Assembly (NCBI RefSeq): GCF_000226975.2
Contig: NZ_CP019285.1
Coordinates: 3,658,001 to 3,722,000 of the forward strand
DNA: 64,000 bases
Reading direction: 5' to 3'
Source: Halobiforma lacisalsi AJ5
Lineage (GTDB): Archaea; Halobacteriota; Halobacteria; Halobacteriales; Natrialbaceae
Shown: positions 1,773 through 33,189 of the stretch, piece by piece
How positions within the stretch are numbered: the first letter of the stretch is position 1
Layout of the letters: every line of letters starts with the position of its first letter
Program-made: the position numbers and the translations under genes
The notes under the pieces: model-generated
Seen by the model: only the letters and a program-made list of their open reading frames with translations
What the model was told of the DNA's origin: nothing
Database searches by the model: none

Positions 1773-2123
1773 ATGTCACGACCCCAGACCCCGCCCCAGG
1801 AGGAACAATCCGACGCCTGCCCCGTGATCGCGTCCCTCGAGCAGATCGGTTCGAAGTGGCGACTGGCCGTACTACACGAACTGCTCGAAGGCGAACAGCG
1901 GTTCAACGAACTCAAGCGATCGACGGGCGCGAACGCACGCACTCTCTCGCGGGTGCTCGACGACCTCGGCGAGATGGGGTTCGTCGAACGACGAATGGAA
2001 GAAGACGCCCCCATCGCGACCTACTACAGTCTCACCGCGAAGGGGGAGTCGCTCGAGCCGGTGTTCGACGAGATCGACTGCTGGGCGGGTAGCTGGCTCG
2101 AGGGTGACGAGTTAAGCCGGTAG
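1773..2123 (+). CDS. HxlR-family winged-helix transcriptional regulator
   Basis: A 116-residue DNA-binding protein. It has the HxlR hallmarks: an N-terminal CPV motif (Cys16 in a DACPV context), then IGSKWRLAVLHELLEGEQRFNELKR, a recognition helix around ANARTLSRVLDDL, and the wing EDAPIATYYSLTAKG. HxlR proteins act as dimers and often sense redox or electrophiles through the N-terminal cysteine. A TATA-like box lies ~30 nt upstream, so the message is probably leaderless, and a perfect dyad overlaps the promoter. The target genes may include the divergent or flanking genes, but nothing in the sequence proves that. Confidence 0.92.
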   Translation: MSRPQTPPQEEQSDACPVIASLEQIGSKWRLAVLHELLEGEQRFNELKRSTGANARTLSRVLDDLGEMGFVERRMEEDAPIATYYSLTAKGESLEPVFDEIDCWAGSWLEGDELSR

Positions 2124-2187
2124 TAGTTGTCGCGAAAACGATTCTAAATCCGGGACTGCCCGCAACAGCTGATTCGAAACCCGTCTC

Positions 2188-2934
2188 TCACGGATCCAGC
2201 CGTAATCCGCCATCGACAGGAATCCGGATGCCCGTTAGGTATTCTGCCTTATCTGACACAAGGAATTCGACGACGTTGGCAATGTCCTCGGGAACGCCCA
2301 TCCGTCCCCACGGAACTCGCTCGTGCATTGCCTGAGTCCGCTCCGGATCCGACAGAATTTCCTCGTTCATGGGAGTTTCAAAGATTCCTGGCGCAATACA
2401 GTTGACTGCAATTCGGTGGTCAGCGAGCTCCAAGGCCATATCTTTGGTGAGCATATGTACGCCGGCCTTCGAGCTGTCGTAGTGGATTTTTTCGGTCCGT
2501 GGGACGGTATCGTGATAGCTGGAGATGTTAATGATGTTTCCCTCGATCCCTTCTTCGATCATGTGATTAGCGACCGCCTGACCGAGCAAGAACTGTCCTT
2601 TCAGGTTTACGTCAAGTACTCGATCCCACTCGGATTCGGGTAATTCAGTAAAGGGGTGTACTGTCTCCACTGCGGCATTGTTCACGAGGACCTCAATTGG
2701 GCCGAGTTGGTCGATAGTTTCCGCTACTATTCTTTCTACTTGCCCAGAATCGGAGACATCCCCTGGTACGGCGTTTGCTGTTCCCCCATCGTTCCGGATC
2801 TTTTCGGCAGTCTTCTCAGCGGCCTCTGGGCTGATGTCATTGACTGCAACGGCATACGATTCCGCTAATTGTATTGCTATCCCACGACCGATTCCTCCAC
2901 CTGCACCGGTGACGAAAGCGACTCGATCGGTCAT
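2188..2934 (-). CDS. SDR-family NAD(P)-dependent oxidoreductase (3-oxoacyl reductase / glucose dehydrogenase-like)
   Basis: A 248-residue classical short-chain dehydrogenase. It has the cofactor motif TGAGGGIG (residues 9-16), the NNAA motif near 85-88, and the catalytic Ser138, Tyr152 and Lys156 in HYDSSKAG. The C-terminal end IPVDGGLRLDP is usual for the family. The ATG giving MTDRVAFVTG was chosen because the longer frame adds only five non-conserved residues. The gene is visibly poorer in G+C than the chromosome average and begins the lower-GC patch, so transfer is possible. The substrate is not predictable. Confidence 0.9.
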   Translation of the reverse strand: MTDRVAFVTGAGGGIGRGIAIQLAESYAVAVNDISPEAAEKTAEKIRNDGGTANAVPGDVSDSGQVERIVAETIDQLGPIEVLVNNAAVETVHPFTELPESEWDRVLDVNLKGQFLLGQAVANHMIEEGIEGNIINISSYHDTVPRTEKIHYDSSKAGVHMLTKDMALELADHRIAVNCIAPGIFETPMNEEILSDPERTQAMHERVPWGRMGVPEDIANVVEFLVSDKAEYLTGIRIPVDGGLRLDP

Positions 2935-3055
2935 GTAGCTAGCTCTCATCCCTTTGCTGGAGAATCTTTTCCTTTCACAAGTAGTGAATCGCGAAAATCA
3001 TAGTAACGGTATTGCGATAGAGCTAAATCAATAACAAATACATCAGTGAACACAT

Positions 3056-5464
3056 ATGGAGGAGGCCAGCAACGGCGATATAGAGACGGAGGCCACTGAT
3101 CGCATCGTCATTGCTAACGGCCAATACCTGGACAAACAGTACTTCCACGAGGCGAGAAAGACGATGGCTCGTGACTGGGACCTCCGCAAAATCGCTTGGC
3201 TTGGCCCTCCATTGTGGGTAGTTCTGTCAGGTATCTCTCTGATTTATATTGGGATGCAACTCCGAAACGGTGTTACAGGCGCGTCACTCATCGGGACTTT
3301 TGATACGATCAGTGAACGAACGGCACAAACGGACCTATCCGTCTTGTACGGGCTCGTCCTGGACAACGCTCACTGGTTCGTACTCCTCCCTGTCGTCGTT
3401 TGGCTCCTCGTAACTGGACTGCCTATATTCCTAAAAAAGGCAATTGCAGCGGTCATAACCTCTATTTTCAAGATCGGACGTGGTTTCGTTCGGGCAAGCC
3501 GGAGTGTCAATCCCGAGACCTGGCAGAAATCGAACTACTGGAATCCATTCATGAGCCATCTTTCAGATCGAGATCCGCTCGTCGTTCTCAACCACGGATC
3601 GGATCAGTCGATTTCTGGCACATTCTCTGACAGTCCATATTACGGTAATGTCCTCGTTGATAGCGTGTACGTCGAAATAGAGGGGGATCTCGGATATCGA
3701 CAACGGCTTTTCACCTACCTATACGATCATCGAGTCCGGTGGGGGTGGAGGATTCTTTTGGGGTTGAGCGCTCTTATCGTCGGAATGTGGACGATTGATC
3801 CGTTCCTCGAGATCCCGACCACACCAATGGGAGAAACCGTCCCATGGAGTCGTCTCGTCTTCGGCGCCGTGTTCCTCTGGGTCATTCTTGGCAGTGCAAT
3901 GTGGATAACCCGCTACCCACAATTTCTCGTAGGCTTCCTAGGTGAGTCGGCGGGTCTGTCCCGATACAAGCGACTGCTTAACGAACCCGATGCGGAAGAT
4001 TCAGAGCGTAGTGATGGGAGAATAGGCCTCAGTAACTCCCTGTGTGGCTATGGTCTGTTCTTCGTCAGCGAATTCCTCTACCAGATATTCGGATATCAAC
4101 GCTATAACGTATCACTTGAGGCAGAATTACTCCCGGAACAGCCTAATAGAGAAGTACGGGCCGACGGTACCGGACAAAAAACCGAAAAATCACAGCGTAC
4201 CTCGACTGATACCTCCGACGAAAACGGGGATCCATCTTTCCGCCCCGAAGCCTACGAGCATCCGACCTCGGAACATGCCGTGGCGGCAGGCCGCGAACTG
4301 CTCTGGTCAGCGGTCCCACGGGAATCGGTCCGAGAGGGCGGTGAGAACGAGGACATTACCCTTTCTCTATCGGGCGTGGACTATTACACCGTTACCGAAA
4401 GGAAACGGAGCCTACTTGCCCGACTGCTTAACAGGTTGGAGGGCCGAAAACGCGACGATGAAAACGGGACTGTCGCTCCCTCGGACGAATCATCAGAGTC
4501 GGAGCCTGAATCCGAAGGCCGCTCCGAAACCGAGGAGATATTCGTAAAAGAACGAGCGGGTCGAGCCTCCGGAATCCGACTTCCTGTAAAGAAATTCATG
4601 AGTGTTCCGCACGAATTGTCCCCTGAAACGGTCCGTAATCCCCCGAAGCCCGTTCCGGAAGTGTATCAGTTCGACGATGCAGAGGGAACGGAGTTAGCCT
4701 GGAACGAGGATACGCGTCATTATGTCCTCCTTGGTGGGGGCGAACATCAGCAGGCGATCAACAAACTCATCCTGGGGATGAAGGCTGCTGGATACGAAAA
4801 CGTCGACGTCCTCGAAAACGCCTTTGCAAGCACCCAGCCGACCGAAGAACTGTCGATTAGTACCGCTCTCGACAATAAAGACCTATCACAATTTTGGAAG
4901 AGTCTTACCGAATGGTGGGAGCCGGGTCTACCACTCGAGAAAAACGCTATCGAGGAGCCCGCCTTCTTTCCCACGGAATACTTCGTGTCCGGTGTCTTCG
5001 GGGGAACGGAATTCTTCAGATCGGACGACGATACGTTCCTCCTATTCAGTCACGAAGCACCTTCCGATGACACCGATACGGAGATCTTTTTTCACGTGAT
5101 CATCGGATTTAGTGCAGTCGCTACGAAAATCGGCTTCCTATATTGGCTCGATCAGTACGACGATGGGTTTCCCGACGTATCTCTCGATACAGGCTATCTG
5201 ATTCGCCATCCAGGAGCCACAGCTATCGATGGGCTCGAGGATATCGGCCACCTCTACGCCAATCCACGACCCTGGCGAACCGGTGACGTCTCCCTCGAGT
5301 TCGACCGACAGCCACTCTCCTCGAATGAGCGGACCCAGAACGGCGTTGAAACGACCTCCCCAGATGGTTCGGGAGGCGACCAAACCGAACAGAATAATAA
5401 CCGACGGGGCCTATCCTTCAAAGACTGTAACCTCGAAATCAACTATGACCCGTCTGGTTCCTGA
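3056..5464 (+). CDS. large four-TM membrane protein of unknown family
   Basis: I do not recognise this 802-residue protein. Hydrophobic segments lie at about residues 47-68, 106-126, 229-249 and 265-284, arranged as two hairpins. Between them is a soluble, strand-rich stretch of ~100 residues. Residues ~370-410 and ~455-520 are acidic, polar and probably disordered. The last ~280 residues form a soluble domain with a glycine-rich LLGGGEHQQ start and several aromatic-rich stretches. An AT-rich promoter region precedes it, and its last 20 nt overlap the downstream Nudix gene, so the two are co-translated. The G+C is lower than in flanking genes. A 4-TM protein paired with a nucleotide-hydrolase fold is reminiscent of defence or signalling modules, but this is speculation. 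Confidence 0.75.
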   Translation: MEEASNGDIETEATDRIVIANGQYLDKQYFHEARKTMARDWDLRKIAWLGPPLWVVLSGISLIYIGMQLRNGVTGASLIGTFDTISERTAQTDLSVLYGLVLDNAHWFVLLPVVVWLLVTGLPIFLKKAIAAVITSIFKIGRGFVRASRSVNPETWQKSNYWNPFMSHLSDRDPLVVLNHGSDQSISGTFSDSPYYGNVLVDSVYVEIEGDLGYRQRLFTYLYDHRVRWGWRILLGLSALIVGMWTIDPFLEIPTTPMGETVPWSRLVFGAVFLWVILGSAMWITRYPQFLVGFLGESAGLSRYKRLLNEPDAEDSERSDGRIGLSNSLCGYGLFFVSEFLYQIFGYQRYNVSLEAELLPEQPNREVRADGTGQKTEKSQRTSTDTSDENGDPSFRPEAYEHPTSEHAVAAGRELLWSAVPRESVREGGENEDITLSLSGVDYYTVTERKRSLLARLLNRLEGRKRDDENGTVAPSDESSESEPESEGRSETEEIFVKERAGRASGIRLPVKKFMSVPHELSPETVRNPPKPVPEVYQFDDAEGTELAWNEDTRHYVLLGGGEHQQAINKLILGMKAAGYENVDVLENAFASTQPTEELSISTALDNKDLSQFWKSLTEWWEPGLPLEKNAIEEPAFFPTEYFVSGVFGGTEFFRSDDDTFLLFSHEAPSDDTDTEIFFHVIIGFSAVATKIGFLYWLDQYDDGFPDVSLDTGYLIRHPGATAIDGLEDIGHLYANPRPWRTGDVSLEFDRQPLSSNERTQNGVETTSPDGSGGDQTEQNNNRRGLSFKDCNLEINYDPSGS

Positions 5465-6254
5465 GACGTACGACGATGATACCGTTTTCCTCTACGCTTC
5501 AAAGGTCGTCCACAATACAGAGACGGATACCTGGATCGTCCATATCGATCCGGATAATCGTCTCGCCGGTGTCGACAACACTCCGCTGGAAGAGATCCGG
5601 AACGCCGACCCGACCGTAACTACGGAGGGTACTCGTGAGATTTACGAGGGCAAAATCCTATTCTCAGCAGGCGTAATATTTCTCGTGAATGACCGGATCG
5701 CCCTCCTCCAACGGGACGAGGAAGCCCCGGCCGATCCAGGGAAGTGGACGTCCCCTGCTGGCCGATGTGAACACGACCCCGGTACCACCGCGCTCAAGGA
5801 GTTCTACGAAGAGCTCGTTATCACAGCCAACGAGCGGCCCGTGTTCGTCCAGTGGTGTGGGTGTTCGGACGAACACTTCGAGACCTACCGGAACGCGCTC
5901 TCCGAGCTTGGCAAGAACGAGCCCATAAACGATTGGCAAACGGTCCGAGCGGAGACCCCGGAATCGTTTCGCTCCTACTTCTCGACTGTGCGGACGAAAT
6001 ACGACGGGCGTCACTTCCGGGACGATCTCTTGACTTACTATGATACGGACGCCAACACGCTCGAGTTCCGGTTTGTCCTCCGAATTACCCCTTCTCCCGA
6101 ATTTGCGTCATCACTTACCTTTGCCGACGGCGAATTCAACCGTGACATCGGGCTATTCGATCCCAAAACACTCCAGTCGATGTCGTCCGACGATCTCGTC
6201 TCGATGGATGCCTACTTCGCCCGAAAGGTGCTGTCGTCCGTCGATACAGTATAG
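5445..6254 (+). CDS. Nudix-like hydrolase domain protein (divergent Nudix box)
   Basis: A 269-residue protein. The central region carries a Nudix-like box at about residues 106-124: Gly106, Glu109, then KEFYEEL with Glu119, Glu122 and Glu123 as presumed metal ligands. Lys replaces the usual Arg of the REUxEE core, and the spacing from Gly to the core is two residues shorter than in the consensus. Strands before it (ILFSAGVIFLVNDRIALLQRDE) match the Nudix fold. About 70 residues precede and 140 follow the domain. The start ATG lies inside the end of the TM-protein gene (20-nt overlap). The substrate is unknown, possibly a nucleotide or dinucleotide; activity is uncertain because of the altered box. 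Confidence 0.8.
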   Translation: MTRLVPETYDDDTVFLYASKVVHNTETDTWIVHIDPDNRLAGVDNTPLEEIRNADPTVTTEGTREIYEGKILFSAGVIFLVNDRIALLQRDEEAPADPGKWTSPAGRCEHDPGTTALKEFYEELVITANERPVFVQWCGCSDEHFETYRNALSELGKNEPINDWQTVRAETPESFRSYFSTVRTKYDGRHFRDDLLTYYDTDANTLEFRFVLRITPSPEFASSLTFADGEFNRDIGLFDPKTLQSMSSDDLVSMDAYFARKVLSSVDTV

Positions 6255-6512
6255 ATCGCATCCAAAATCCGGTATCTCATCATATGTATACTTCCTCAGT
6301 CGCTTGAAAAACTCCGAGGAGCGTACCGACACTCCGATCGGCTCGACGCTTACAGGGTAGTCGCCGTCGTTTGTCTGGTACTTCTGTGGTTTTGGACGGT
6401 TGAGGAATGCCGTCGTATTCAGTGCTCCAGGAAGAGTAACGACGACGTGACGAGCCAAGTTTTGGAATTGCTGTCGTGATTTTAATTCCTGGTTTCGAGG
6501 CTCGAGACTCCG
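6255..6512 (-). pseudogene. possible gene remnant antisense to the end of the Nudix gene region
   Basis: On the minus strand a frame stays open for about 86 codons between a stop at 6513 and the Nudix stop, and continues under the Nudix gene. It reads with balanced composition (for example LARHVVVTLPGALNTTAF and EFFKRLRKYTYDEIPDF) and no good start codon. It may be the tail of a decayed gene from the same low-GC insertion. I cannot assign a family, and a chance open frame is possible. Confidence 0.2.
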
Positions 6513-6537
6513 CTACAGAGATATGAACGTACGGGAC

Positions 6538-6984
6538 TTACTCGTCGGCGTCCAGTTCGACCAACTGCAGCGACCGGTCGAGGTGACAGACCTCGTGGGG
6601 CGGATCGCCGAGGATGTCCCGGATGCGATACTCCTCGTCGAACTCGAGGCCGGCCGGCTCGCAATACTCGTGACTCGGACACTCGACGTACGGGCAGGAC
6701 CCGGGCAGGCTCGTCTTGCTGCCGGCGAACGCGCCTTTCGACGTGACGTTGGCCTCGATGGTAACTGGCTCGACCTCGACGGCGCGGACGCCGCCGTCGT
6801 GCATCGCACACTCGAGGGTCTGGGCCTTCTCGCGGACGCCGGTGACCCGGTACCTCGTGCCGGTCGAGAGATTCAGACACTGGCTGCGGTAGGGACAGCC
6901 GGCGCAGCCGTCGGCTTCCCCCTCGTAGACGAACTCGGTCCCCGGCTCCGCGAGCCGGGTGCCGACGAGCGTGACGGTCGACAT
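6538..6984 (-). CDS. UPF0179 family protein
   Basis: A 148-residue conserved archaeal protein of the UPF0179 family. It carries eight cysteines (27, 30, 36, 59, 97, 102, 108, 133), in particular CAGCPYRSQC and CPYVECPSHEYC, which suggest a bound metal or Fe-S cluster. The length is typical and the start MSTVTLVGTRLA is the usual family N-terminus. The biochemical function of the family is not established. It stands on the minus strand next to another conserved haloarchaeal gene, separated by ~55 nt. Confidence 0.92.
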   Translation of the reverse strand: MSTVTLVGTRLAEPGTEFVYEGEADGCAGCPYRSQCLNLSTGTRYRVTGVREKAQTLECAMHDGGVRAVEVEPVTIEANVTSKGAFAGSKTSLPGSCPYVECPSHEYCEPAGLEFDEEYRIRDILGDPPHEVCHLDRSLQLVELDADE

Positions 6985-8151: not shown

Positions 8152-10224
8152 ATGACCGGTGACATCGAGACGCTCGAAGAGCTGAGCACTGAATACAAGG
8201 AATCGATGCCCGCTGACCTGCGGGAAACCAAGTCCTTCGACTGGTACCTCGAGGAGGTGTACGAGGACCCGAAGATCGCCCGCAACGCGCACCAGCGCGT
8301 CGCGGACATGTTCGACTACTACGGGACCACCTACGACGAGACCGAAGGGGTGGTCGAGTACCAGTTGGCGAGCGAGGACCCGCTCAACGACGGCGAGAAT
8401 ACGTTCTACGGACGGGTGATCCACCAGTCGATCCACGAGTTCGTCAACAAGGTGAAGTCGGGTGCGAGGCGACTCGGTCCCGAACGGCGCATCAAGCTCC
8501 TGCTCGGGCCGGTCGGCTCGGGGAAGTCCCACTTCGACAAGCAGGTCCGCCAGTACTTCGAGGACTACACGCTGCGCGAGGAGGGGCGGATGTACACCTT
8601 CGAGTGGCGGAACCTCTGTGACGTCGTCCAGGACCAGGACCCGGCCGACGACACCGTCCGTTCCCCGATGAACCAGGACCCGCTCGTGCTTCTCCCACTG
8701 GAGCAGCGCCAGCGGGTCATCGACGACCTCAACGAGCGACTCGACGCGCCGTACACGATCCAGAACGAGCAGTCGCTGGACCCCGAAAGCGAGTTCTACA
8801 TGGACAAGCTGCTGGCGTACTACGAGGACGACCTCCAGCAGGTCCTCGAGAACCACGTCGAGATCGTCCGCCTGGTCGCCGACGAGAACAAGCGCCAGGC
8901 CCTGGAGACCTTCGAGCCCAAGGACAAGAAGAACCAGGACGAGACCGAGCTAACGGGCGACGTCAACTACTCGAAGATCGCCATCTACGGCGAGTCGGAC
9001 CCGCGGGCGTTCGACTACTCGGGGGCGTTCTGTAACGCCAACCGGGGGATATTCTCCGGGGAGGAGCTGCTGAAGCTCCAGCGGGAGTTCCTCTACGACT
9101 TCCTGCACGCCACCCAGGAGCAGACGATCAAGCCGAAGAACAACCCCCGGATCGACATCGACCAGGTGATCGTCGGCCGGACGAACATGCCCGAGTACAA
9201 GGACAAGAAGGGCGACGAGAAGATGGAGGCGTTCAACGACCGTACCAAGCGGATCGACTTCCCGTACGTCCTGTCCTACGAGGACGAGGCAAGCATCTAC
9301 GAGAAGATGCTCAACAACGCCGACGTCCCCGACATCAACGTCGAGCCCCACACGCTCGAGATGGCGGGGCTGTTCGGCGTCCTCACCCGGGTCGAGGAGC
9401 CCGACGCCGAGACCGTCGACCTGCTTTCGAAGGCCAAGGCCTACAACGGGGAGATCGACGAGGGCGACGACATCGACGTCAAGAAACTCCGCGAGGAGGC
9501 CGAGGGGAAGGCCGAGATCGGCGAGGGCATGATCGGCGTCTCGCCGCGGTTCATCGGCGACGAGATCGCCGAGGCAATTATGGACTCGAAACACCGCTCC
9601 CGGGGCTTCCTCTCGCCGCTTACGGTGTTCAACTTCTTCGAGGAGAACTTGGAGCACCACGGTTCGATCCCCGAAGACCAGTTCCAGACCTACTACCGCT
9701 ACCTCGAGACGGTCCGCGAGGAGTACAAGGAACGCGCCATCGAGGACGTCCGCCACGCGCTGGCCTACGACGTCGACGAGATCCAGCGCCAGGGCGAGAA
9801 GTACATGGACCACGTCATGGCCTACATCGACGACGACACGATCGAGGACGAGTTGACCGGCCGGGAACAGGAGCCCGACGAGACGTTCCTGCGCTCGGTC
9901 GAGGAGAAACTCGACATCCCGGAGGACCGCAAGGACGACTTCCGCCAGGAGGTCTCGAACTGGGTCTCCCGTCGGGCCCGCGAGGGCGAGGCGTTCAACC
10001 CGCAGGACAACGAGCGCCTGCGCCGCGCCCTGGAGCGCAAGCTCTGGGAGGACAAGAAGCACAACATCAACTTCTCCGCGCTCGTGTCGGCCAACGAGTT
10101 CGACGACGACGAACGGTCCTCGTGGATCGACGCCCTGATGGAACAGGGCTACTCCGAGGGCGGCGCGAAGGAAGTGCTCGAGTTCGCCGGCGCGGAGGTC
10201 GCCAAGGCAGAGATGGAAGACTAA
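8152..10224 (+). CDS. prkA: PrkA-family serine protein kinase, first paralogue
   Basis: A 690-residue PrkA/YeaG-type protein: an AAA-like ATPase core followed by the C-terminal PrkA kinase domain. The Walker A motif GPVGSGKS is at about residues 119-126, preceded by the family N-terminus (SFDWYLEEVYEDPKIARNAHQRV). Family members phosphorylate proteins on serine and act in stationary-phase or nitrogen stress. It is the first gene of a four-gene operon; the next gene begins 1 nt after the stop. The ATG follows a long GC-rich leader. The acidic composition is typical of halophilic cytosolic proteins. The name is by family resemblance; the substrate in archaea is unknown. Confidence 0.95.
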   Translation: MTGDIETLEELSTEYKESMPADLRETKSFDWYLEEVYEDPKIARNAHQRVADMFDYYGTTYDETEGVVEYQLASEDPLNDGENTFYGRVIHQSIHEFVNKVKSGARRLGPERRIKLLLGPVGSGKSHFDKQVRQYFEDYTLREEGRMYTFEWRNLCDVVQDQDPADDTVRSPMNQDPLVLLPLEQRQRVIDDLNERLDAPYTIQNEQSLDPESEFYMDKLLAYYEDDLQQVLENHVEIVRLVADENKRQALETFEPKDKKNQDETELTGDVNYSKIAIYGESDPRAFDYSGAFCNANRGIFSGEELLKLQREFLYDFLHATQEQTIKPKNNPRIDIDQVIVGRTNMPEYKDKKGDEKMEAFNDRTKRIDFPYVLSYEDEASIYEKMLNNADVPDINVEPHTLEMAGLFGVLTRVEEPDAETVDLLSKAKAYNGEIDEGDDIDVKKLREEAEGKAEIGEGMIGVSPRFIGDEIAEAIMDSKHRSRGFLSPLTVFNFFEENLEHHGSIPEDQFQTYYRYLETVREEYKERAIEDVRHALAYDVDEIQRQGEKYMDHVMAYIDDDTIEDELTGREQEPDETFLRSVEEKLDIPEDRKDDFRQEVSNWVSRRAREGEAFNPQDNERLRRALERKLWEDKKHNINFSALVSANEFDDDERSSWIDALMEQGYSEGGAKEVLEFAGAEVAKAEMED

Positions 10225-10225
10225 C

Positions 10226-12511
10226 ATGACCGGCAACGACTACGTCACCGAGGCCGACCGCGAACTCGAGGCGACCTACGAGGAGCCGATGAGCCTCGCG
10301 GCGTACGTCGACCGGATCTTCGAGAACCCGACGATCGCCTCCCACGCCTCGAAATATCTGCTCGAGGCGATCGAGGCCGCCGGTACCCGGACCGTCGTCG
10401 AAGAAGGCGAGGAGAAAGAGCGCTATCGCTTCTTCGACGACCCACACAACGACGGCGAGCACGCCATCCTCGGCAACACCGAGGTCCTGAACGGGTTCGT
10501 CGACGACCTCCGGTCGATCGCCGCCGGCCGGGCGAAAGACGAGAAGATCATCTGGTTCGAGGGCCCTACGGCAACCGGCAAGTCCGAACTCAAGCGCTGT
10601 CTGGTCAACGGCCTCCGGGAGTACTCGAAGACCCCCGAGGGTCGACGGTACACCCTCGAGTGGAACGTCGCGACGGCCGAGGCCGGCGAACGCGGACTGA
10701 GCTACGGCAGCGATCCGACCGCCACGGACGAGCAGAACTGGTACGAGAGTCCCGTCCAGGCCCACCCGCTCTCGGTGTTCCCCGAGGAGGTCCGCGAGCG
10801 ACTGCTCGACGACCTGAACGACGGCCTCGACGACCACGTCCCCGTCAGGGTCGACGCCGAACTCGACCCGTTCTCGCGGGAGGCCTACGACTACCTCGAG
10901 GAGCGGTACCGTCGGGAGGGCGAGGAGGAACTGTTCTCGGCCATCGCCGACGAGAACCACCTCCGGGTCAAGAACTACGTCGTCGACGTCGGGCAGGGGG
11001 TCGGCGTCCTCCACAGCGAGGACGAGGGTCGCCCCAAGGAGCGACTCGTCGGCTCCTGGATGCACGGCATGCTCCAGGAACTCGACTCGCGGGGGCGCAA
11101 GAACCCGCAGGCGTTCAGCTACGACGGCGTGCTCTCGCAGGGCAACGGCGTCCTCACCATCGTCGAGGACGCCGCACAGCACGCCGACCTGCTCCAGAAG
11201 CTGCTGAACGTCCCCGACGAACAGTCCGTGAAACTGGACAAGGGGATCGGGATGGACGTCGACACCCAGATGCTGATCATCTCGAACCCCGACCTCGAGG
11301 CCCAGTTGAACCAGCACTCGGATCGCAACGGGATGGACCCGCTGAAGGCGCTCAAACGGCGGCTCGACAAACACCGCTTCGGCTACCTGACGAACCTCAG
11401 CCTCGAGACGGAGCTGATCCGCCGGGAACTGACAAACGAGACGGAGGTCTGGGAGGCCGACAGCTACGACGAACTCGAGAATCGCATCCGCGAGCCGGTG
11501 AGGGTGACGATCAAGGACCAGGACGGCGACGTCCGGACCCAGGAGTTCGCGCCCCACGCCATCGAGGCGGCCGCGCTGTACGCGGTCGTCACCCGGCTGG
11601 ACGAGGAGAACCTGCCCAATGGGCTGGACCTGGTCGACAAAGCCAAGATCTACGATCAGGGCTACCTCCAGGAGGGCGACACCCGCCGCGAAAAAGAGGA
11701 GTTCGACTTCGACGACGACGGCGAGGACGGCGAACACGGGATCCCGGTCACCTACACCCGGGACACCCTCGCGGAACTCCTCCAGACCGACCGCGACCGA
11801 CACCACGCCGAACTCCCCGTCGAGAACGTCGTCATGCCTCGCGACGTGCTGAACACGATGGCGGAGGGACTGGGCGACGCGCCCGTCTTCTCGACGGGCG
11901 AGCGCTCGGAGTTCGAGAACCGCGTCGTGCCGGTGAAAAACTACATCTACGACCGACAGGAGGCCGACGTCATCGAGGCCATCATGCACGAGAAACGCGT
12001 CGACGAGGAGACCGTCGGGGAGTACGTCGAACACGTCTACGCGTGGGAGACGGACGAACCGCTGTACAACGACCGCGGCGAGGAGGTCGAACCGGACCCG
12101 CTGAAGATGAAGCTGTTCGAGGTCGAACACCTCGGACGGTTCTCCGAGGACGACTACGAGGGGAACCTCCCCCGCGAGAGCGTCCGGAACTTCCGCCGCG
12201 AGAAGGTCATCACCTCGCTGAACCGCCACGCCTGGGAGCACCGCGACGAGGATTTCTCAGTCCAGGACGTCGACCTCACGGCGATCCCGGTCATCAAGAG
12301 CGTCCTCGAGAGCCACGACTGGGACGACGTCAAGCGGACCTTCGAGGACTTCGATCCTCGCCAGTGGGACGACCCGCCGAGCGGGACCGAGACGGCGTCG
12401 GTCAAGGCGGATACGATCGAGACGCTGGTCGAGGAGTTCGACTACTCCGAGGCGTCGGCCGAACTGACCAGCAGACACGTCATGGGACAGGTGAGCTACC
12501 GATGGGACTGA
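10226..12511 (+). CDS. PrkA-family serine protein kinase, second paralogue
   Basis: A 761-residue paralogue of the preceding protein, sharing the N-terminal layout ([27 protein letters not shown]) and a Walker A GPTATGKS at about residues 113-120. It is longer, with an insertion around residue 480 rich in acidic residues. Two adjacent PrkA genes are common in haloarchaea, where both precede UPF0229 and SpoVR genes; whether they form a hetero-oligomer is not known. The start is 1 nt after the first paralogue's stop, so translational coupling is likely. The stop lies in a 10-bp sequence that is repeated exactly at the start of the next gene. Confidence 0.94.
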
Positions 12512-12537
12512 ACAACGAGAACCGACCATGGGACTGA
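12502..12537. repeat. 10-bp direct repeat at the PrkA2/UPF0229 junction
   Basis: ATGGGACTGA occurs at 12502-12511, where it contains the TGA stop of the second PrkA gene, and again at 12528-12537, where it contains the ATG start of the UPF0229 gene. The two copies are separated by 16 nt. The pattern looks as though stop and start once overlapped in a single copy and were later separated by a 26-nt duplication/insertion. The repeat is directly seen; the history is inferred. Confidence 0.75.
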
Positions 12538-13859
12538 GAGACGACCTCGAACGATTCCGCGAAGTGGGCGAAAAGCGCCGCGAAGACCTGGCCGACTTCA
12601 TCCAGTACGGCGACCTTGGGGGAAGCGGCGCGAGCCAGATCAACATCCCGGTAAAGATCGTCTCCCTGCCGGAGTTCGAGTACGATCAGCGTGACAAGGG
12701 CGGCGTCGGCCAGGGCGACGGCGACACGCCCGACACCGGCCAGCCGGTCGGCCAGCCCCAACCCCAGCCGGGCGACGGCGACGGTGACGAGGACGGCGAA
12801 CCCGGCGAGGAGGGCGGCGAGCACGAGTACTACGAGATGGACCCCGAGGAGTTCGCCGAGGAACTCGACGAGGAACTCGGGCTCGATCTCGATCCCAAGG
12901 GGAAGAAGGTCATCGAGGAGAAGGAAGGCCCGTTCACCGATATGACCCGGACGGGCCCCGACAGCACGCTCGACTTCGAGCGGATGTTCAAAGAGGGGCT
13001 CAAGCGCAAACTCGCGATGGACTTCGACGAGGACTTCCTGCGCGAGGTCTGCAAGGTCGAGGGCTTCGGCCCCCGTGACGTCTTCGAGTGGGCCCGCAGC
13101 GAGAGCATCCCCGTCTCGATGGCCTGGATCGAGGAGGCCTACGCCGACATTCCCGAGGAGCAGCGCGACGAGTGGTCGTCGGTCGACGAACTCGAGTCCG
13201 AAGTCGAACGCGAATCGATCCAGCAACAGATCCGCCGGGAGGGGATCAAACACGTCCCCTTCCGCCGCGAGGACGAGCGGTACCGCTACCCGGAGATCAT
13301 CGAGGAGAAAGAGAAGAACGTCGTCGTCGTCAACATCCGGGACGTCTCAGGCTCGATGCGCGAGAAGAAGCGCGAACTCGTCGAGCGGACGTTCACCCCG
13401 CTGGACTGGTACCTCCAGGGGAAGTACGACAATGCCGAGTTCGTCTACATCGCCCACGACGCCGACGCCTGGCAGGTCGAACGCGACGACTTCTTCGGCA
13501 TCCGCAGCGGCGGCGGGACGAAGATCTCGAGCGCGTACGAACTCGCCCAGGAACTGCTCGAGGAGTACCCCTGGACCGACTGGAACCGGTACGTCTTCGC
13601 CGCGGGCGACTCGGAGAACTCCTCGAACGACACCGAAGAGCGGGTGATCCCGCTGATGGAGGAGATCCCGGCGAACCTCCACGCATACGTGGAGACCCAG
13701 CCCAGCGGCAACGCGATCAACGCCACCCACGCCGAGGAACTCGAGCGCCACTTCGGCCCCGACGCTGACGACGTCGCGGTGGCCTACGTCAACAGCAAGG
13801 GGGACGTGACGGACGCGATCTACGAGATCCTCAGTACCGAGGGTGAGACCGATGAGTAA
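12528..13859 (+). CDS. yeaH: UPF0229 (YeaH-like) VWA-domain protein
   Basis: A 443-residue member of the UPF0229/YeaH family. An N-terminal region of ~70 residues is followed by a Gly/Asp/Pro-rich low-complexity linker (about residues 60-105). The C-terminal half is a von Willebrand A-like fold, with the MIDAS-type DVSGS beginning at Asp272 and a second patch [11 protein letters not shown]. Family members are encoded next to PrkA/YeaG and are thought to work with it under starvation; the mechanism is unknown. The start ATG is in a duplicated 10-bp sequence 16 nt after the previous stop. The TAA stop overlaps an ATGAGTAA sequence that probably was the original start of SpoVR. Confidence 0.93.
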
Positions 13860-13965
13860 CGAAGCGAACTTCGTTCGCTTCGGCCCTCGCGCAAGCGCGA
13901 GGACCCTTTCGATGGCACGCGAAGCGCGCATCGAACCCACGAAAACCGGTGGTTGTCATGAGTAA
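13852..13965 (+). other. 37-codon mini-ORF bridging UPF0229 and SpoVR
   Basis: An ATG overlapping the UPF0229 stop (ATGAGTAA) opens 37 codons rich in Arg and Ala. They end in a TAA lying inside a second ATGAGTAA that holds the SpoVR ATG. The peptide is basic, encoded entirely by the palindromic insert, and unlikely to be a functional protein. The arrangement would let ribosomes pass from UPF0229 to SpoVR by two successive termination-reinitiation steps. Translation is inferred. Confidence 0.35.
13860..13957. repeat. 98-bp palindrome-rich insert flanked by 8-bp direct repeats
   Basis: The segment between two copies of ATGAGTAA (13852-13859 and 13958-13965) holds three hairpins in series. The first is GAAGCGAAC-TTC-GTTCGCTTC, a perfect 9-bp stem. 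The second is CCTCGCGC-AA-GCGCGAGG, a perfect 8-bp stem. The third is a weaker stem closed by TCGATG...CATCGA. The flanking 8-bp repeats look like a target-site duplication. The structure resembles short REP/MITE-like palindromic elements; no transposase is present. It sits exactly at a start codon that would otherwise overlap the UPF0229 stop. Confidence 0.75.
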
Positions 13966-15985
13966 GCGCAATTCCAACGCGGATCGGTTCCGCAAACAGG
14001 CGATCGCGGGCGACCTCGAGGAGCCAGTCGCGGAGGCCCGCAACCTCGCGAGAAAACTGGGCCTCGAGCCCTACCCGGTCAAGTACTGGATCATCGACTA
14101 CGACGAGATGAACGAACTCATCGCCTACGGCGGCTTCCAGAGTCGCTACCCACACTGGCGGTGGGGGATGCAGTACGACAAGCAGCGCAAACAGGGCCAG
14201 TACGGCGGGGGCAAGGCCTTCGAGATCGTCAACAACGACAACCCGGCCCACGCCTTCCTCCAGGAGTCGAACACGCTGGCCGACCAGAAGGCCGTCATCA
14301 CCCACGTCGAGGCCCACTCCGACTTCTTCGCGAAGAACGAGTGGTTCGGCCTGTTCACCGACGGCCGGGCCGACGAGGAGCAGGTCAACGCCGCCGCCAT
14401 GCTCGAGCGCCACGCGCGAGCGATCGACGACTACATGTCCGATCCCGAGATCGACCGCGCGGAGGTCGAGAAGTGGATCGACCACTGCCTCTCGCTCGAG
14501 GACAACATCGATCAACACCGCGTCTTCGAGCGCCGCCTCGAGGTCGAGGGCCCGCCGGACGACCTCGACGAGGACCTCGCGGCGAAACTGGAGGAACTCG
14601 AACTCTCCGACGAGATCAAAGGCGAAGTGTTCGACGAGGAGTGGGTCGAGAAACTCGAGGAACGCGACGAGCAGGTCACGTTCCCCGACCAGCCCCAGAA
14701 GGACCTGCTGGCGTTCGTCCGCGAGCACGGCAAGCAGTACGACGAGGAGGCCGAACGGGCCGTCGAGATGGCCGAGTGGCAACGCGACGTGCTCGACATG
14801 ATGCGGGCCGAGGCGTACTACTTCGCCGCCCAGAAGATGACGAAGGTGATGAACGAGGGATGGGCCGCCTACTGGGAGTCGACGATGATGACCGACGAAC
14901 GGTTCGCCGGCGACGACGAGTTCCTCAACTACGCGGACCACATGGCGAAGGTGCTCGCCTCCGGCGGACTCAACCCCTACAGTCTCGGCATGGAGCTGTG
15001 GGAGTACGTCGAGAACACGACGAACCGCCGCGAGGTTCTGGAGCGCCTGCTGCGCGTCGAGGGGATCTCCTGGCGTAACCTCACCGACGTCGTCGACTTC
15101 GACGACGTCCTCGAGACGCTCGAGCCGCCGGCAGCGATCGCCGAGATCACGCCGGAAACCCTGGACGACCTCGAGGAACTCCCCGACGAGTGGATCGACC
15201 GCGAGGCCCTCGAGGCCGCCCAGGAGGGGGAGATCGACGTCGCGAAGTACCCCTGGAAGGTGCTGACCTACGAGGGGCTGGCCCGTCGACATTACTCGCT
15301 GGTCAAGCGCCAGCACCGCGGGTTCCTCTCGCGGGTCTCCCAGAACGAACTCGAGCGGATCGGCCGCTACCTGTTCGACGACGCCCGCTACGCGTCGGTG
15401 GAGGAAGCCCTCGAAGACGTCGAGTACACCGCGGGCTGGGATCGTATGTTCGACGTCCGGGAGAGCCACAACGACGTTACCTTCCTCGACGAGTTCCTCA
15501 CGGAGGAGTTCATCACCGAGAACCACTACTTCACCTACGAGCACTCGAAGGCGACCGGCCAGTTCCACGTCGCCAGTGACGCCGCCGAGGACGTCAAGAA
15601 GAAGCTCCTGTTGCAGTTCACCAACTTCGGGAAGCCGACGATCGCCGTCTACGACGGCAACTACAACAACGCCAACGAACTCCTGTTGGGACACCAGTAC
15701 AACGGCGTCATGCTGGACATCGGGCAGGCCCAGGAGACCCTCAAGCGGATCTTCGAGCTGTGGGGTCGGCCCGTGAACCTCCTGACGATCGTCAAGGAAG
15801 TCGACGAACACGACGTCGAGGTCGCGAAGCGACGCAACCGCGAACCCGAGGCCGAGGAACGCGGGAAACTGATCCGCTACGACGGCGACGAGGTGACGAC
15901 GGAGACCGTCCCCTGGGAGGAAGTCGAACATCTGGCGGCCGACGACGTCGACTACGACACGAAGCCCGAGGATTGGCTCGCCTGA
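13958..15985 (+). CDS. SpoVR family protein (YcgB-like)
   Basis: A 675-residue SpoVR/YcgB family protein, last gene of the PrkA operon. The conserved N-terminus (ARKLGLEPYPVKYWIIDYDEMNEL, then the RYPHWRWGMQY motif) and the ENNHYFTYEH-like and PTIAVYDGNYNN-type C-terminal motifs are present. The family is named for a Bacillus spore-cortex gene, but most members are in non-sporulating organisms and are linked with PrkA and UPF0229; the activity is unknown. The ATG giving MSKRNSNADRF was chosen over an upstream in-frame codon because it keeps the ATGAGTAA junction motif. It is separated from UPF0229 by a palindromic insert. Confidence 0.94.
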   Translation: MSKRNSNADRFRKQAIAGDLEEPVAEARNLARKLGLEPYPVKYWIIDYDEMNELIAYGGFQSRYPHWRWGMQYDKQRKQGQYGGGKAFEIVNNDNPAHAFLQESNTLADQKAVITHVEAHSDFFAKNEWFGLFTDGRADEEQVNAAAMLERHARAIDDYMSDPEIDRAEVEKWIDHCLSLEDNIDQHRVFERRLEVEGPPDDLDEDLAAKLEELELSDEIKGEVFDEEWVEKLEERDEQVTFPDQPQKDLLAFVREHGKQYDEEAERAVEMAEWQRDVLDMMRAEAYYFAAQKMTKVMNEGWAAYWESTMMTDERFAGDDEFLNYADHMAKVLASGGLNPYSLGMELWEYVENTTNRREVLERLLRVEGISWRNLTDVVDFDDVLETLEPPAAIAEITPETLDDLEELPDEWIDREALEAAQEGEIDVAKYPWKVLTYEGLARRHYSLVKRQHRGFLSRVSQNELERIGRYLFDDARYASVEEALEDVEYTAGWDRMFDVRESHNDVTFLDEFLTEEFITENHYFTYEHSKATGQFHVASDAAEDVKKKLLLQFTNFGKPTIAVYDGNYNNANELLLGHQYNGVMLDIGQAQETLKRIFELWGRPVNLLTIVKEVDEHDVEVAKRRNREPEAEERGKLIRYDGDEVTTETVPWEEVEHLAADDVDYDTKPEDWLA

Positions 15986-29721: not shown

Positions 29722-30261
29722 CACTGGCCATTGTCGAAGATCGTTCTCCACCACCGGTCATGCCTTCCCCCAGTTTGCCGTCGTCGCGTGGGTCCGTGAG
29801 GACTTCCCTCGATGCCGGCTTTCGCCCCTTGACCCAGTGTGCCGGGATCCGATTACGGCCGGGGGTACGGTCAACGACGGCCTGCTCCCTGTTCTTCGCG
29901 TCTTCGAGTTCGCCAACGTGGTCGCCTTCGAGAATCAATGACTGAAAAGTACAGTCCCCTGTTCACGCCGGATGAGGCGGTGATTTTCACGAACGTGATG
30001 GTGTGCGTTCCGGTCGTCGGTGCTGACTGATTTTCAGTGGCTACGTCACCGGCGGACGGTGCGAGAGTTTCGCGAGATGGTTTTTACCCCTCCCCAGTCG
30101 TGGTATCGCTGCGAGGGGACGTTCCAAACTGGCATCGGAACAAACGATCCAGGAGATGGAAAGAATGCTCGGACAGGTGCCAGGCATTATGCAGCTCGTC
30201 CGCGAGACGAGAATCCCCTCACCGTAACGTCCATTAATGGGATTGTCCTACTGGCCACCCA
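29722..30261 (+). pseudogene. gene remnants between the cobalt operon and the histidine kinase
   Basis: 540 nt with no intact gene but several protein-like pieces in sequence. The first (about 29760-29941) reads FPQFAVVAWVREDFP ... VFEFANVVAFENQ and stops. The second (29938-30030), coupled to it by ATGA, reads MTEKYSPLFTPDEAVIF and stops after 30 residues. The third (about 30138-30227) reads IQEMERMLGQVPGIMQLV, resembling the N-terminus of carboxymuconolactone-decarboxylase/AhpD-type proteins. I interpret this as a deleted operon end. The family guesses are weak. A palindromic ccattaatgg (30231-30240) lies ~25 nt before the kinase start and may be its TATA region. Confidence 0.3.
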
Positions 30262-32376
30262 GTGAGTTTTCAGAAACATCTTCTCGAGGCCCTCGGCCCG
30301 AGACGGATCATCGCAGTTCTCGGCGGGCTGTATGTCGTACTCGCTGTCGGACGGGGGTTTGTCCGGTTTACTCGAGATGTACCGCCTGGCAACATCCTTG
30401 TCGTAACCCTATTGATTGCTTTTCCCGGGTTCGGTCTCATATACGGTAGCTACTGGCTCTCTCACACTGATATCGGATCGAAGTTCTACTCTGATATCGC
30501 TCGCTGGTGTCTGATTGGATTCGGTGCAATGGCAATCATCCTCCTTCTCTACCATCTCCAGCCGGAAGGCGGAATCTCCACGCCAGCAACATCTCCACCG
30601 ATCCTGACGGCGCTTAGCACTGTTGCAGGGTTCGGAGTAGGGATTCACGATGCCCAAGCGAAGACGCGAACAGATCAGCTCGAGCAACGTAATCGGGAAC
30701 TGGAAGAAACACAGGTAGAACTCGAGGAGACGGTGGACGAACTCGAAGACGCGAACGAACGCCTCGAGCGCTACAGAGAGTACACGGATCACGTGCTGGA
30801 TGCGATCGATGATATCTTCTATGTGCTTGACGACGCGGGCTCGCTTCGACGGTGGAACGAAAGTCTCTGTGAGGTAACAGGCTATTCGGAGGCCGAAATT
30901 TCGTCGATGACGGCGGTCGATTTTTTCGATGACGATGAGCACCCGTTGATAGCGGAGACGATCGCGGACGGATTCGAAACGGGCAGTATTCAGCTTGAAG
31001 CAGAGCTACTCACCAAGGAAGGAGAGCCTATTCCGTACGAATTTGTCGCGTCAACGGTCGAAAATCCCGATAACGAGAGCGTGCTGGCGGGCATTGGACG
31101 AGATATCACCGAACGGAAAGAATGGGAACGTGAACTCGAGAATCGAGTCAAACAGCAGGAAGTGGTGGCAGAGATCGGGCAACTCGCGCTTGAACGGGAT
31201 GATCTCGACGAAGTGATGGCTGAAGCGGCCCAGCAGGTAGCAGCGGCTCTTCACAACGAGTACTGCATGGTACTCGATTTTGATTCTTCCCGTGAAGAAC
31301 TCCAGCTTCGACAAGGTGTTGGTTGGGACGACGAAGGAACTGTGGACGTATCGATCTCGACTGATGAGACGGATTCTCAGGCTGCATATACATTGGCGAA
31401 CGATCATCCAGTCGTCGTCGAAAATTTCGAGACAGAAACACGATTTAGCGGCTCTGAACTGCTGACGAGCCACGATATTCGCAGTGGTATTAGTACGCTT
31501 ATCGGGACGACCGACGATCCATGGGGTCTCATCGCCGCGTACGATACGAATCCGCAGACGTTCACCGAGGAGGACGTCACGTTCGTCCAGAGCGTGGCGA
31601 CGATTCTCGCAGATGCGATCGAACGGAATCAATATCAAAACGATCTCGAACAGCTGGTAGCTGACCTGGAGGAGTCCAACGAACGTCTCGAACAGTTCGC
31701 GTACGCAGCGTCACACGACTTGCAAGAGCCGCTGCGGATGGTTTCCAGCTATCTCCAGTTGATCGAGCGTCGCTACGGTGATGAACTCGATGAGGACGGC
31801 GAGGAGTTCCTCGAATTCGCCGTGGATGGCGCTGATCGGATGCGATCGATGATCGACGGCCTGCTCCAGTACTCACGGGTCGAAACACAGGGAAGCGAAT
31901 TCGAGCCAGTGGATCTCGAGAACGTTCTCGACGACGTCCGTGAGGATCTACGGATGAAAATCGAGGAGAGCGATGCCAAGATCACCGCGGAGTCGCTTCC
32001 CCGGGTCACCGGAGATGAGGAGCAGTTACGGCAGGTATTCCAGAATCTCCTCTCCAACGCGATCAAATACAGTGGTGAGGGGCCACCCAAGGTGCATATC
32101 TCCGCTGGACGGAACGGGACGGACTGGACAGTCTCAGTCTCTGACAACGGAATCGGTATCGATCCGAAGGATCAGGACCGGATTTTCGAGGTCTTCGAGG
32201 GGTTACACGCCGCCGATGACTATACGGGTACGGGGATCGGTCTTGCAGTCTGTGAACGGATCATCGAACGACACGGTGGAGAAATCTGGGTCGAATCCGA
32301 ACCCGGTGAAGGATCGACGTTCTCGGTCACGCTGCCGGCAGTCACCGATCGGTTCGAAGAGTACGCGGTAGAATAA
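30262..32376 (+). CDS. membrane sensor histidine kinase (4TM-PAS-GAF-HisKA-HATPase)
   Basis: A 704-residue kinase starting at GTG. Four membrane helices lie at about residues 14-34, 42-66, 79-98 and 108-126. A coiled coil (~135-175), a PAS domain (~180-290) and a GAF-like domain (~300-445) follow, then the HisKA dimerisation domain with phospho-acceptor His485 (SHDLQEPLRM). The catalytic part has the N-box NLLSNAIKYS, DNGIGID and GTGIGLAV. It would sense a signal in the membrane or PAS/GAF modules and phosphorylate a response regulator. The gene is lower in G+C than its neighbours. The adjacent receiver gene is only a broken fragment, so it may be orphaned. Confidence 0.93.
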   Translation: MSFQKHLLEALGPRRIIAVLGGLYVVLAVGRGFVRFTRDVPPGNILVVTLLIAFPGFGLIYGSYWLSHTDIGSKFYSDIARWCLIGFGAMAIILLLYHLQPEGGISTPATSPPILTALSTVAGFGVGIHDAQAKTRTDQLEQRNRELEETQVELEETVDELEDANERLERYREYTDHVLDAIDDIFYVLDDAGSLRRWNESLCEVTGYSEAEISSMTAVDFFDDDEHPLIAETIADGFETGSIQLEAELLTKEGEPIPYEFVASTVENPDNESVLAGIGRDITERKEWERELENRVKQQEVVAEIGQLALERDDLDEVMAEAAQQVAAALHNEYCMVLDFDSSREELQLRQGVGWDDEGTVDVSISTDETDSQAAYTLANDHPVVVENFETETRFSGSELLTSHDIRSGISTLIGTTDDPWGLIAAYDTNPQTFTEEDVTFVQSVATILADAIERNQYQNDLEQLVADLEESNERLEQFAYAASHDLQEPLRMVSSYLQLIERRYGDELDEDGEEFLEFAVDGADRMRSMIDGLLQYSRVETQGSEFEPVDLENVLDDVREDLRMKIEESDAKITAESLPRVTGDEEQLRQVFQNLLSNAIKYSGEGPPKVHISAGRNGTDWTVSVSDNGIGIDPKDQDRIFEVFEGLHAADDYTGTGIGLAVCERIIERHGGEIWVESEPGEGSTFSVTLPAVTDRFEEYAVE

Positions 32377-32454
32377 TACCAGTAGATAGCCGGCCAGCAG
32401 ACGCTAACTCTTCTTTCGCAGTATAGTTCCTCAATTTCGTGTATCTACAACCCG

Positions 32455-32565
32455 ATGACGATACCTATGCACAATTCGTCTTCACAGCCGAGTCAATGTC
32501 TTGATCTATTGTTAGTAGAGGATAATCCAGGGCTGCTCGACTCGTTCCTTGACGTCCTGGCCTGA
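32455..32565 (+). pseudogene. truncated response-regulator start
   Basis: A 36-codon frame begins MTIPMHNSSSQPSQ and then reads CLDLLLVEDNPG, the exact first strand and acidic pocket of a CheY-like receiver, before diverging (LLDSFLDVLA) to a stop. It lies 79 nt after the kinase, where a cognate regulator would be expected. The rest of the receiver is missing. It ends where a PadR fragment on the other strand also ends. Confidence 0.6.
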
Positions 32566-32628
32566 CGGGCGATCGGCTCCTGTAATCACGTACAGGAGGT
32601 CGCGTTGGAACCCAGTGAGGTTGGTCAT
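32512..32628 (-). pseudogene. truncated PadR-family regulator start
   Basis: On the minus strand an ATG at 32628 opens MTNLTGFQRDLLYVITGADRP, then SGQDVKERV, the N-terminal signature of haloarchaeal PadR-like winged-helix regulators, and stops after 38 residues. Twenty codons upstream stay in frame (ending YSTVEDSPK) and may belong to the original N-terminus. The recognition helix and wing are missing. The fragment overlaps the response-regulator fragment antiparallel, so both genes were cut at the same breakpoint. Confidence 0.55.
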
Positions 32629-32946
32629 CTTAGGAGAGTCTTCAACGGTGCTGTATTTGGATTCTTTTCTGGCCTGTTCAATCTGTACTTATGGTGTTAA
32701 AGTCCGGGCCAGATTAGTGACTGAGGGTCGTAGAATGTATCAGATTTATAATATATCGAAGGATGTATAGCTGGAACCCGGTAATGACATTTGAATGACT
32801 AGAATCAGTCGTGTCATCAGTCAATTCGTGAGATGACCTTACCCAAGTCTACAGCGCCGGATCCGTGCCAGGAGTGAATCACGAACTCGAGACCGCGGCG
32901 AAGGAGCGTCCGGAACTCGCCGCGTGATTCGGCCAACCGATCGGTC
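32629..32946. other. AT-rich region without a gene
   Basis: About 320 nt, clearly AT-richer than average, following the PadR fragment. I see no intact gene, RNA or repeat family. It probably belongs to the same rearranged segment as the two gene fragments beside it. Confidence 0.4.
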
Positions 32947-33189
32947 TCAGTCCGAGTCCTCGAGCAGTCCGAGGTCGGTCGCGATCAGGTCGGCGATGCT
33001 CTCGGCGACGTCGGGGTCGACCTCGGCGACGTCCTCGCCGTCGTGCAGCTGCTGATTGTGGCGCTCGATCGAGTCGGCCAGATCGGACAGGGGGACCCGG
33101 GAAGTCGTTTCGCACTCGGGGCAGACGACCGGGACGCGCGGATCGTCCTCGGACCCGTCCCCGTCGGGATCGGTATCGGTGGGAGCCAT
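32947..33189 (-). CDS. small conserved haloarchaeal protein (CPEC motif)
   Basis: An 80-residue acidic protein. After a disordered Asp-rich N-terminus it has VVCPECETTSRVPLSDLADSIERHNQQLHDGEDVAEVDPDVAESIADLIATDLGLL: one cysteine pair (23, 26) and a helical remainder. A single CxxC could bind metal with a partner or as a dimer. It is a recurring small haloarchaeal protein with unknown role. Confidence 0.75.
   Translation of the reverse strand: MAPTDTDPDGDGSEDDPRVPVVCPECETTSRVPLSDLADSIERHNQQLHDGEDVAEVDPDVAESIADLIATDLGLLEDSD

Follow-up and report, generated by a model that had tools for sequence, protein, structure and literature searches.

A rare pairing of a membrane protein with a Nudix protein in haloarchaea and a possible role in nucleotide signaling

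Membrane proteins that work together with a small enzyme acting on a nucleotide signal have been described. In the CorA-NrN system of type III CRISPR, a membrane effector has an obligate partner enzyme that breaks down its activator, SAM-AMP (PMC10600005), and TIR-SLATT pairs have been linked to ADP-ribose signals (PMC9503650). The gene pair analyzed in the present study, which encodes a membrane protein (ORF1) and a Nudix protein, shares with CorA-NrN the adjacency of a membrane protein gene and a small enzyme gene and the obligate pairing of the two, the enzyme of CorA-NrN being one that degrades a nucleotide signal (PMC10600005). The pair is, however, not a member of the CorA-NrN family: ORF1 has no CorA domain (no Pfam CorA match at E-values up to 10), its partner is a Nudix protein instead of a DHH/DEDD enzyme, and its surroundings revealed no CRISPR gene that would make a signal. 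SLATT and S-4TM effectors resemble ORF1 in that they belong to small mobile modules and are anchored in the membrane by hairpins, but ORF1 matched no such family in Pfam or PADLOC, and it differs from them in its large soluble C-terminal domain, its conserved inter-hairpin loop, and a number of transmembrane (TM) segments that ranges from 2 to 6. The third relative is the MutT-type Nudix hydrolase family (PF00293), for which the partner protein scores above the gathering cut-off (26.4 bits versus 21.1) and whose E. coli member MutT is the nearest solved structure found with a profile built on the partner protein's own family (E 4e-4). Literature searches returned no description of the ORF1-Nudix pair.

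The pair lies on the 4.38-Mb chromosome of a haloarchaeon (G000), in a stretch of 64,000 nucleotides hereafter called the window, and its features are collected in Table 1. A patch of low G+C content at about 2200-6500, suggestive of acquisition, had been proposed in the first-pass annotation, and both points hold: the G+C content over 2001-6500 is 50-58%, compared with 65.7% on average for the window and ~66% for the chromosome, the GC3 of ORF1 is 58%, and in a genome of the same genus (G052) the entire segment is replaced by 19 bp between the HxlR regulator gene and the UPF0179 gene. The spacing between these two genes is 66-79 bp in genomes G166 and G362. The low-GC patch is, in short, a real insertion of acquired DNA. 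Its content is three genes, encoding a short-chain dehydrogenase/reductase (SDR), ORF1, and the Nudix protein, and no direct repeats marking an integration site stood out at its borders. The slot between the HxlR and UPF0179 genes (loci L130, L131, and L135) is a variable spot in the family of the host because other, unrelated genes are held there in two genomes: in the closest one (G320), whose flanks are 95-96% identical to those of the window, it is filled by an unrelated membrane-protein gene that is nucleoside-recognition-like by inspection, and in G004 by an unrelated membrane-protein gene that resembles, by inspection only, a short-chain-fatty-acid transporter.

Table 1. Positions of the inserted segment and of its genes, motifs, and predicted domains in the window
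Feature	Position	Strand	Basis or remark
Acquired low-GC segment, ~4.4 kb	2103..6538	.	Between HxlR-type regulator gene and UPF0179 gene
SDR-family oxidoreductase, complete gene, divergent from ORF1	2188..2934	-	Pfam adh_short_C2, 4e-59
ORF1, membrane protein, 802 aa, ATG start	3056..5464	+	Two TM hairpins, large soluble C-terminal part
TM1, residues 49-67	3200..3256	+	Hydropathy
TM2, residues 108-126	3377..3433	+	Hydropathy
Motif NYWxPFxxHxSDRDPL in inter-hairpin loop, residues 160-175	3533..3580	+	Alignment; invariant in haloarchaeal homologs
TM3, residues 233-251	3752..3808	+	Hydropathy; region missing in distant homolog of G611
TM4, residues 267-285	3854..3910	+	Hydropathy
Conserved stretch LxNSLxGYGxFxVSEF after TM4, residues 325-340	4028..4075	+	Alignment
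Conserved soluble C-terminal domain, residues 499-740, candidate ligand-binding	4550..5275	+	Alignments; motifs RLPVK, LGGxEH, NVDxxEN, EYFVS, GxxAxxxK
Nudix-domain protein, 269 aa, ATG at 5445	5445..6254	+	PF00293, E 7.6e-6; starts 20 nt before ORF1 stop
Shortened Nudix box GRCEHDPGTTALKEFYEELVI	5760..5822	+	Two residues shorter than canonical; metal-binding E-x2-E-E core kept; alignments, including HMMER alignments to viral and MutT boxes

For the 802-residue protein, the first-pass annotation recognized no family and described two TM hairpins with a large soluble C-terminal domain. Hydropathy analysis places the hairpins at TM1-TM4, and the protein also contains an acidic variable stretch. 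ORF1 gave no match in Pfam, NCBIfam, PADLOC, or PDB and nothing credible in PHROGs, and homology to a housekeeping family, the outcome that the annotation had set against its own idea, did not turn up for it in the domain libraries. As judged from these searches, ORF1 represents a protein family absent from general domain libraries. Weak class-wide profile matches to ORF1 were due to chance on inspection, those in G520 and G529 being aldehyde-dehydrogenase-like proteins by inspection. AlphaFold models were unusable, with a pLDDT of 36 for a whole ORF1 homolog and 40 for the C-terminal domain, because few homologs exist in the collections searched. Conservation in the family sits in the soluble motifs, while the number of TM segments predicted by hydropathy varies: there are 2 in the distant homolog from genome G611, 4 in the proteins of the window, Natronomonas, and Haloarculaceae archaeon H-GB1-1, where a fifth weak hydrophobic stretch was taken as part of the first hairpin, and 6 in that of Haloparvum. 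The number is always even, which would put the N terminus, the inter-hairpin loop, and the C terminus on the same side of the membrane and, together with the conserved soluble motifs, fits an anchor with the functional parts on one side. The positive charges flanking the hairpins suggest that these conserved parts face the cytoplasm.

The Nudix-like fold ascribed to the second protein is borne out by its PF00293 score, and PF00293 is listed for three of the four haloarchaeal Nudix members (E <= 1). The haloarchaeal box nevertheless departs from that of MutT-type enzymes, although it retains the E-x2-E-E core. It does not satisfy the full signature GX5EX7REUXEEXGU, lacking the first Glu, the GE pair, and the last Gly, which follows EE, in addition to the two residues by which it is shortened. 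The protein of the window also has an extra N-terminal part of ~65 residues and a long C-terminal part in which an [FS]xDxE motif is conserved, neither of which is a feature of the MutT type. In Natronomonas, the box reads EEFHEE, so that the usual Arg is missing.

ORF1 is present in only 4 of 391 genomes of the class, and strong Nudix homologs (E < 1e-39) occur in the same four genomes, adjoining ORF1, with no orphans; if the two genes occurred independently, the chance of such a coincidence would be ~1e-9, a value uncorrected for kinship. Family-wide profile searches found ORF1 in 4/146, 1/170, and 1/125 genomes of three families and added two carriers, both Natronomonas, bringing the haloarchaeal carriers to six genomes of four genera, in all of which the Nudix gene adjoins ORF1. 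The pair has been kept at 34-44% identity across the three families. The 20-nt overlap reported for the window was confirmed with the start codon given in Table 1, and the genes overlap by 4 nt (GTGA) in Haloparvum sedimenti and, in Natronomonas, by 14 nt with the ATG giving MAMND or 8 nt with an inner ATG, while in H-GB1-1 they do not overlap and lie 18 or 51 nt apart. These overlaps suggest that translation of ORF1 and the Nudix gene may be coupled. Three Natronomonas genomes hold the pair in the same neighborhood, with dN/dS values of 0.08-0.11 (ORF1) and 0.23-0.32 (Nudix gene). ORF1 is under strong purifying selection, and, because of these values and the kept neighborhood, both ORF1 and the Nudix gene are functional. 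The retention of so rare a pair in a few archaea suggests that the two genes form a genuine two-part system.

When 365 genomes from the phylum were searched with a profile, a single find lay outside the class, a 613-aa ORF1 homolog with one TM hairpin in G611, the other weak matches being due to chance. The homolog aligns with the N-terminal third of ORF1 and with its C-terminal domain (20-24% identity; total E 2.5e-20 against a small local set), and the motifs LPVK, LGGxEH, and GxxAxxxK of the latter extend to it, whereas NYWxPFxxHxSDRDPL is complete in haloarchaea only and partly kept in the G611 protein. Directly upstream, and thus in reversed order compared with haloarchaea, lies a Nudix-like ORF (L146:1035-2021), whose match to the profile of the haloarchaeal Nudix proteins (22.8 bits; hhalign E 6e-5) covers the Nudix box and a distal [FY]xDGE motif. 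The constant linkage to the Nudix gene that the annotation had wished to see surveyed is consequently found in all haloarchaeal carriers and in another archaeal class, which indicates that the pairing is old and maintained; the ORF1 family has a fixed enzymatic partner across two archaeal classes. The catalytic core of the G611 partner is, however, degraded, with AESVEI instead of RExxEE. The partner in this lineage may therefore serve for binding rather than hydrolysis, and the Nudix partners may not in general act as hydrolases.

What the pair does can be approached by analogy. Our tentative proposal, which we regard as quite possible though short of probable, is that it constitutes an old, rare, and horizontally moved archaeal module in which ORF1, anchored in the membrane, would sense a nucleotide-like ligand in the cytosol and the Nudix partner would degrade this ligand. 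The hairpins would anchor ORF1, while its inter-hairpin loop and C-terminal LGGxEH domain would face the cytoplasm and bind a small nucleotide-like ligand; the ligand-bound ORF1 might then alter the membrane state or recruit a partner, and cleavage of the ligand, presumably a nucleoside-diphosphate-linked compound, by the Nudix protein would reset it. In support of this proposal are the obligate pairing, the gene overlaps, the linkage in a second class, and the purifying selection, and CorA-NrN with SAM-AMP gives a published precedent (PMC10600005). On the other hand, no enzyme making a nucleotide signal occurs in the loci, which counts against a sensor, as do the AESVEI core in G611 and the Arg-less box of Natronomonas. 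With somewhat greater reserve, the pair might be considered an undescribed archaeal nucleotide-signaling module, made up of a receptor, anchored in the membrane and carrying a cytosolic domain of a new kind, and a dedicated shortened-box Nudix enzyme that is its obligate partner and cleaves the ligand. If the substrate of the Nudix protein is the signal, it would be a new archaeal small-molecule signal; to our knowledge, nucleotide second messengers in archaea are poorly known.

Another possibility, which we see as somewhat unlikely, is a metabolic or envelope function, where ORF1 would be a membrane enzyme or transporter component handling an activated, nucleotide-linked metabolite and the Nudix protein would hydrolyze that compound or a by-product, possibly in the same pathway as the SDR. 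The SDR gene has the same divergent position beside ORF1 in the carriers of the window and G371 (63% identical). As these two are not closely related, this would agree with a shared pathway, but the G251 homolog, although 74% identical, is encoded elsewhere in the genome and no close SDR homolog is present in the ORF1 carrier G195. The SDR was accordingly rejected as a constant third partner; it sometimes travels with the ORF1-Nudix pair and is not an obligate part of it. Metabolic or transport genes in the slot and the neighborhoods, the strong purifying selection, and invariant His, Asp, and Glu residues of ORF1 that could be catalytic would all suit a metabolic role, while the lack of any enzyme-family match for ORF1 speaks against it. 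At the other end of the insertion, a minus-strand ORF (6153-6458) that had been read as a gene remnant has no Pfam match and overlaps the Nudix gene, and that reading is unsupported.

A role in virus defense, which had been suggested for the pair, has no positive evidence here, although it would be consistent with the rarity and horizontal transfer of the pair. Such a role would take the form of an abortive-infection system, with ORF1 as a membrane-damaging effector triggered by a nucleotide made on infection and the Nudix protein as its off-switch or activator. We consider this unlikely, despite the patchy occurrence of the pair and a layout like that of membrane effectors that are gated by nucleotides and have a degradative partner (PMC10600005). 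PADLOC-DB 2.0.0 contained no family matching ORF1 or the Nudix protein from the window or their homologs, and the closest neighbors at five loci looked ordinary as judged mostly by inspection or one Pfam scan. The pair was not found in phage, plasmid, or viral-contig collections, the viral Nudix matches being ordinary Nudix enzymes whose similarity is confined to the Nudix box. Moreover, the other occupants of the slot look like transporters, the second TM hairpin is absent in G611, which argues against a conserved pore, and ORF1 evolves slowly. Among the few neighbors run against PADLOC, one SMC-like coiled-coil protein gave broad, weak matches to many SMC-type models; its gene adjoins a Natronomonas copy of the pair (L021:4296-6934), as does an RdfA gene (Pfam PF21811).

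Improbable, in our view, is an arrangement resembling a toxin-antitoxin system, in which ORF1 would harm its own cell and the Nudix protein would protect it by binding or enzymatic action. The two-gene operon, the patchy distribution, and the failure to find an orphan ORF1 are as expected of such a system, but the length of ORF1 is unusual for a toxin, the Nudix gene comes second in haloarchaea and first in G611, and the synteny, stable across three Natronomonas species, is more suggestive of vertical inheritance than of addiction. That the pairing merely reflects shared ancestry of a few horizontal transfers and is functionally meaningless, as the small sample of six haloarchaeal carriers might allow, is very improbable, since the pair is kept at such low identity in three families and the G611 locus, with a Nudix-like neighbor in reversed order in another class, largely refutes it.

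Two regions elsewhere in the window were also recognized by inspection. Positions 8152-15985 hold four consecutive genes resembling a PrkA-PrkA-YeaH-SpoVR kinase cluster, and a second low-GC patch (30001-33000, 52-57%) encodes a 704-aa protein (30262-32376) that resembles a sensor histidine kinase and has PAS/GAF-like and kinase regions.
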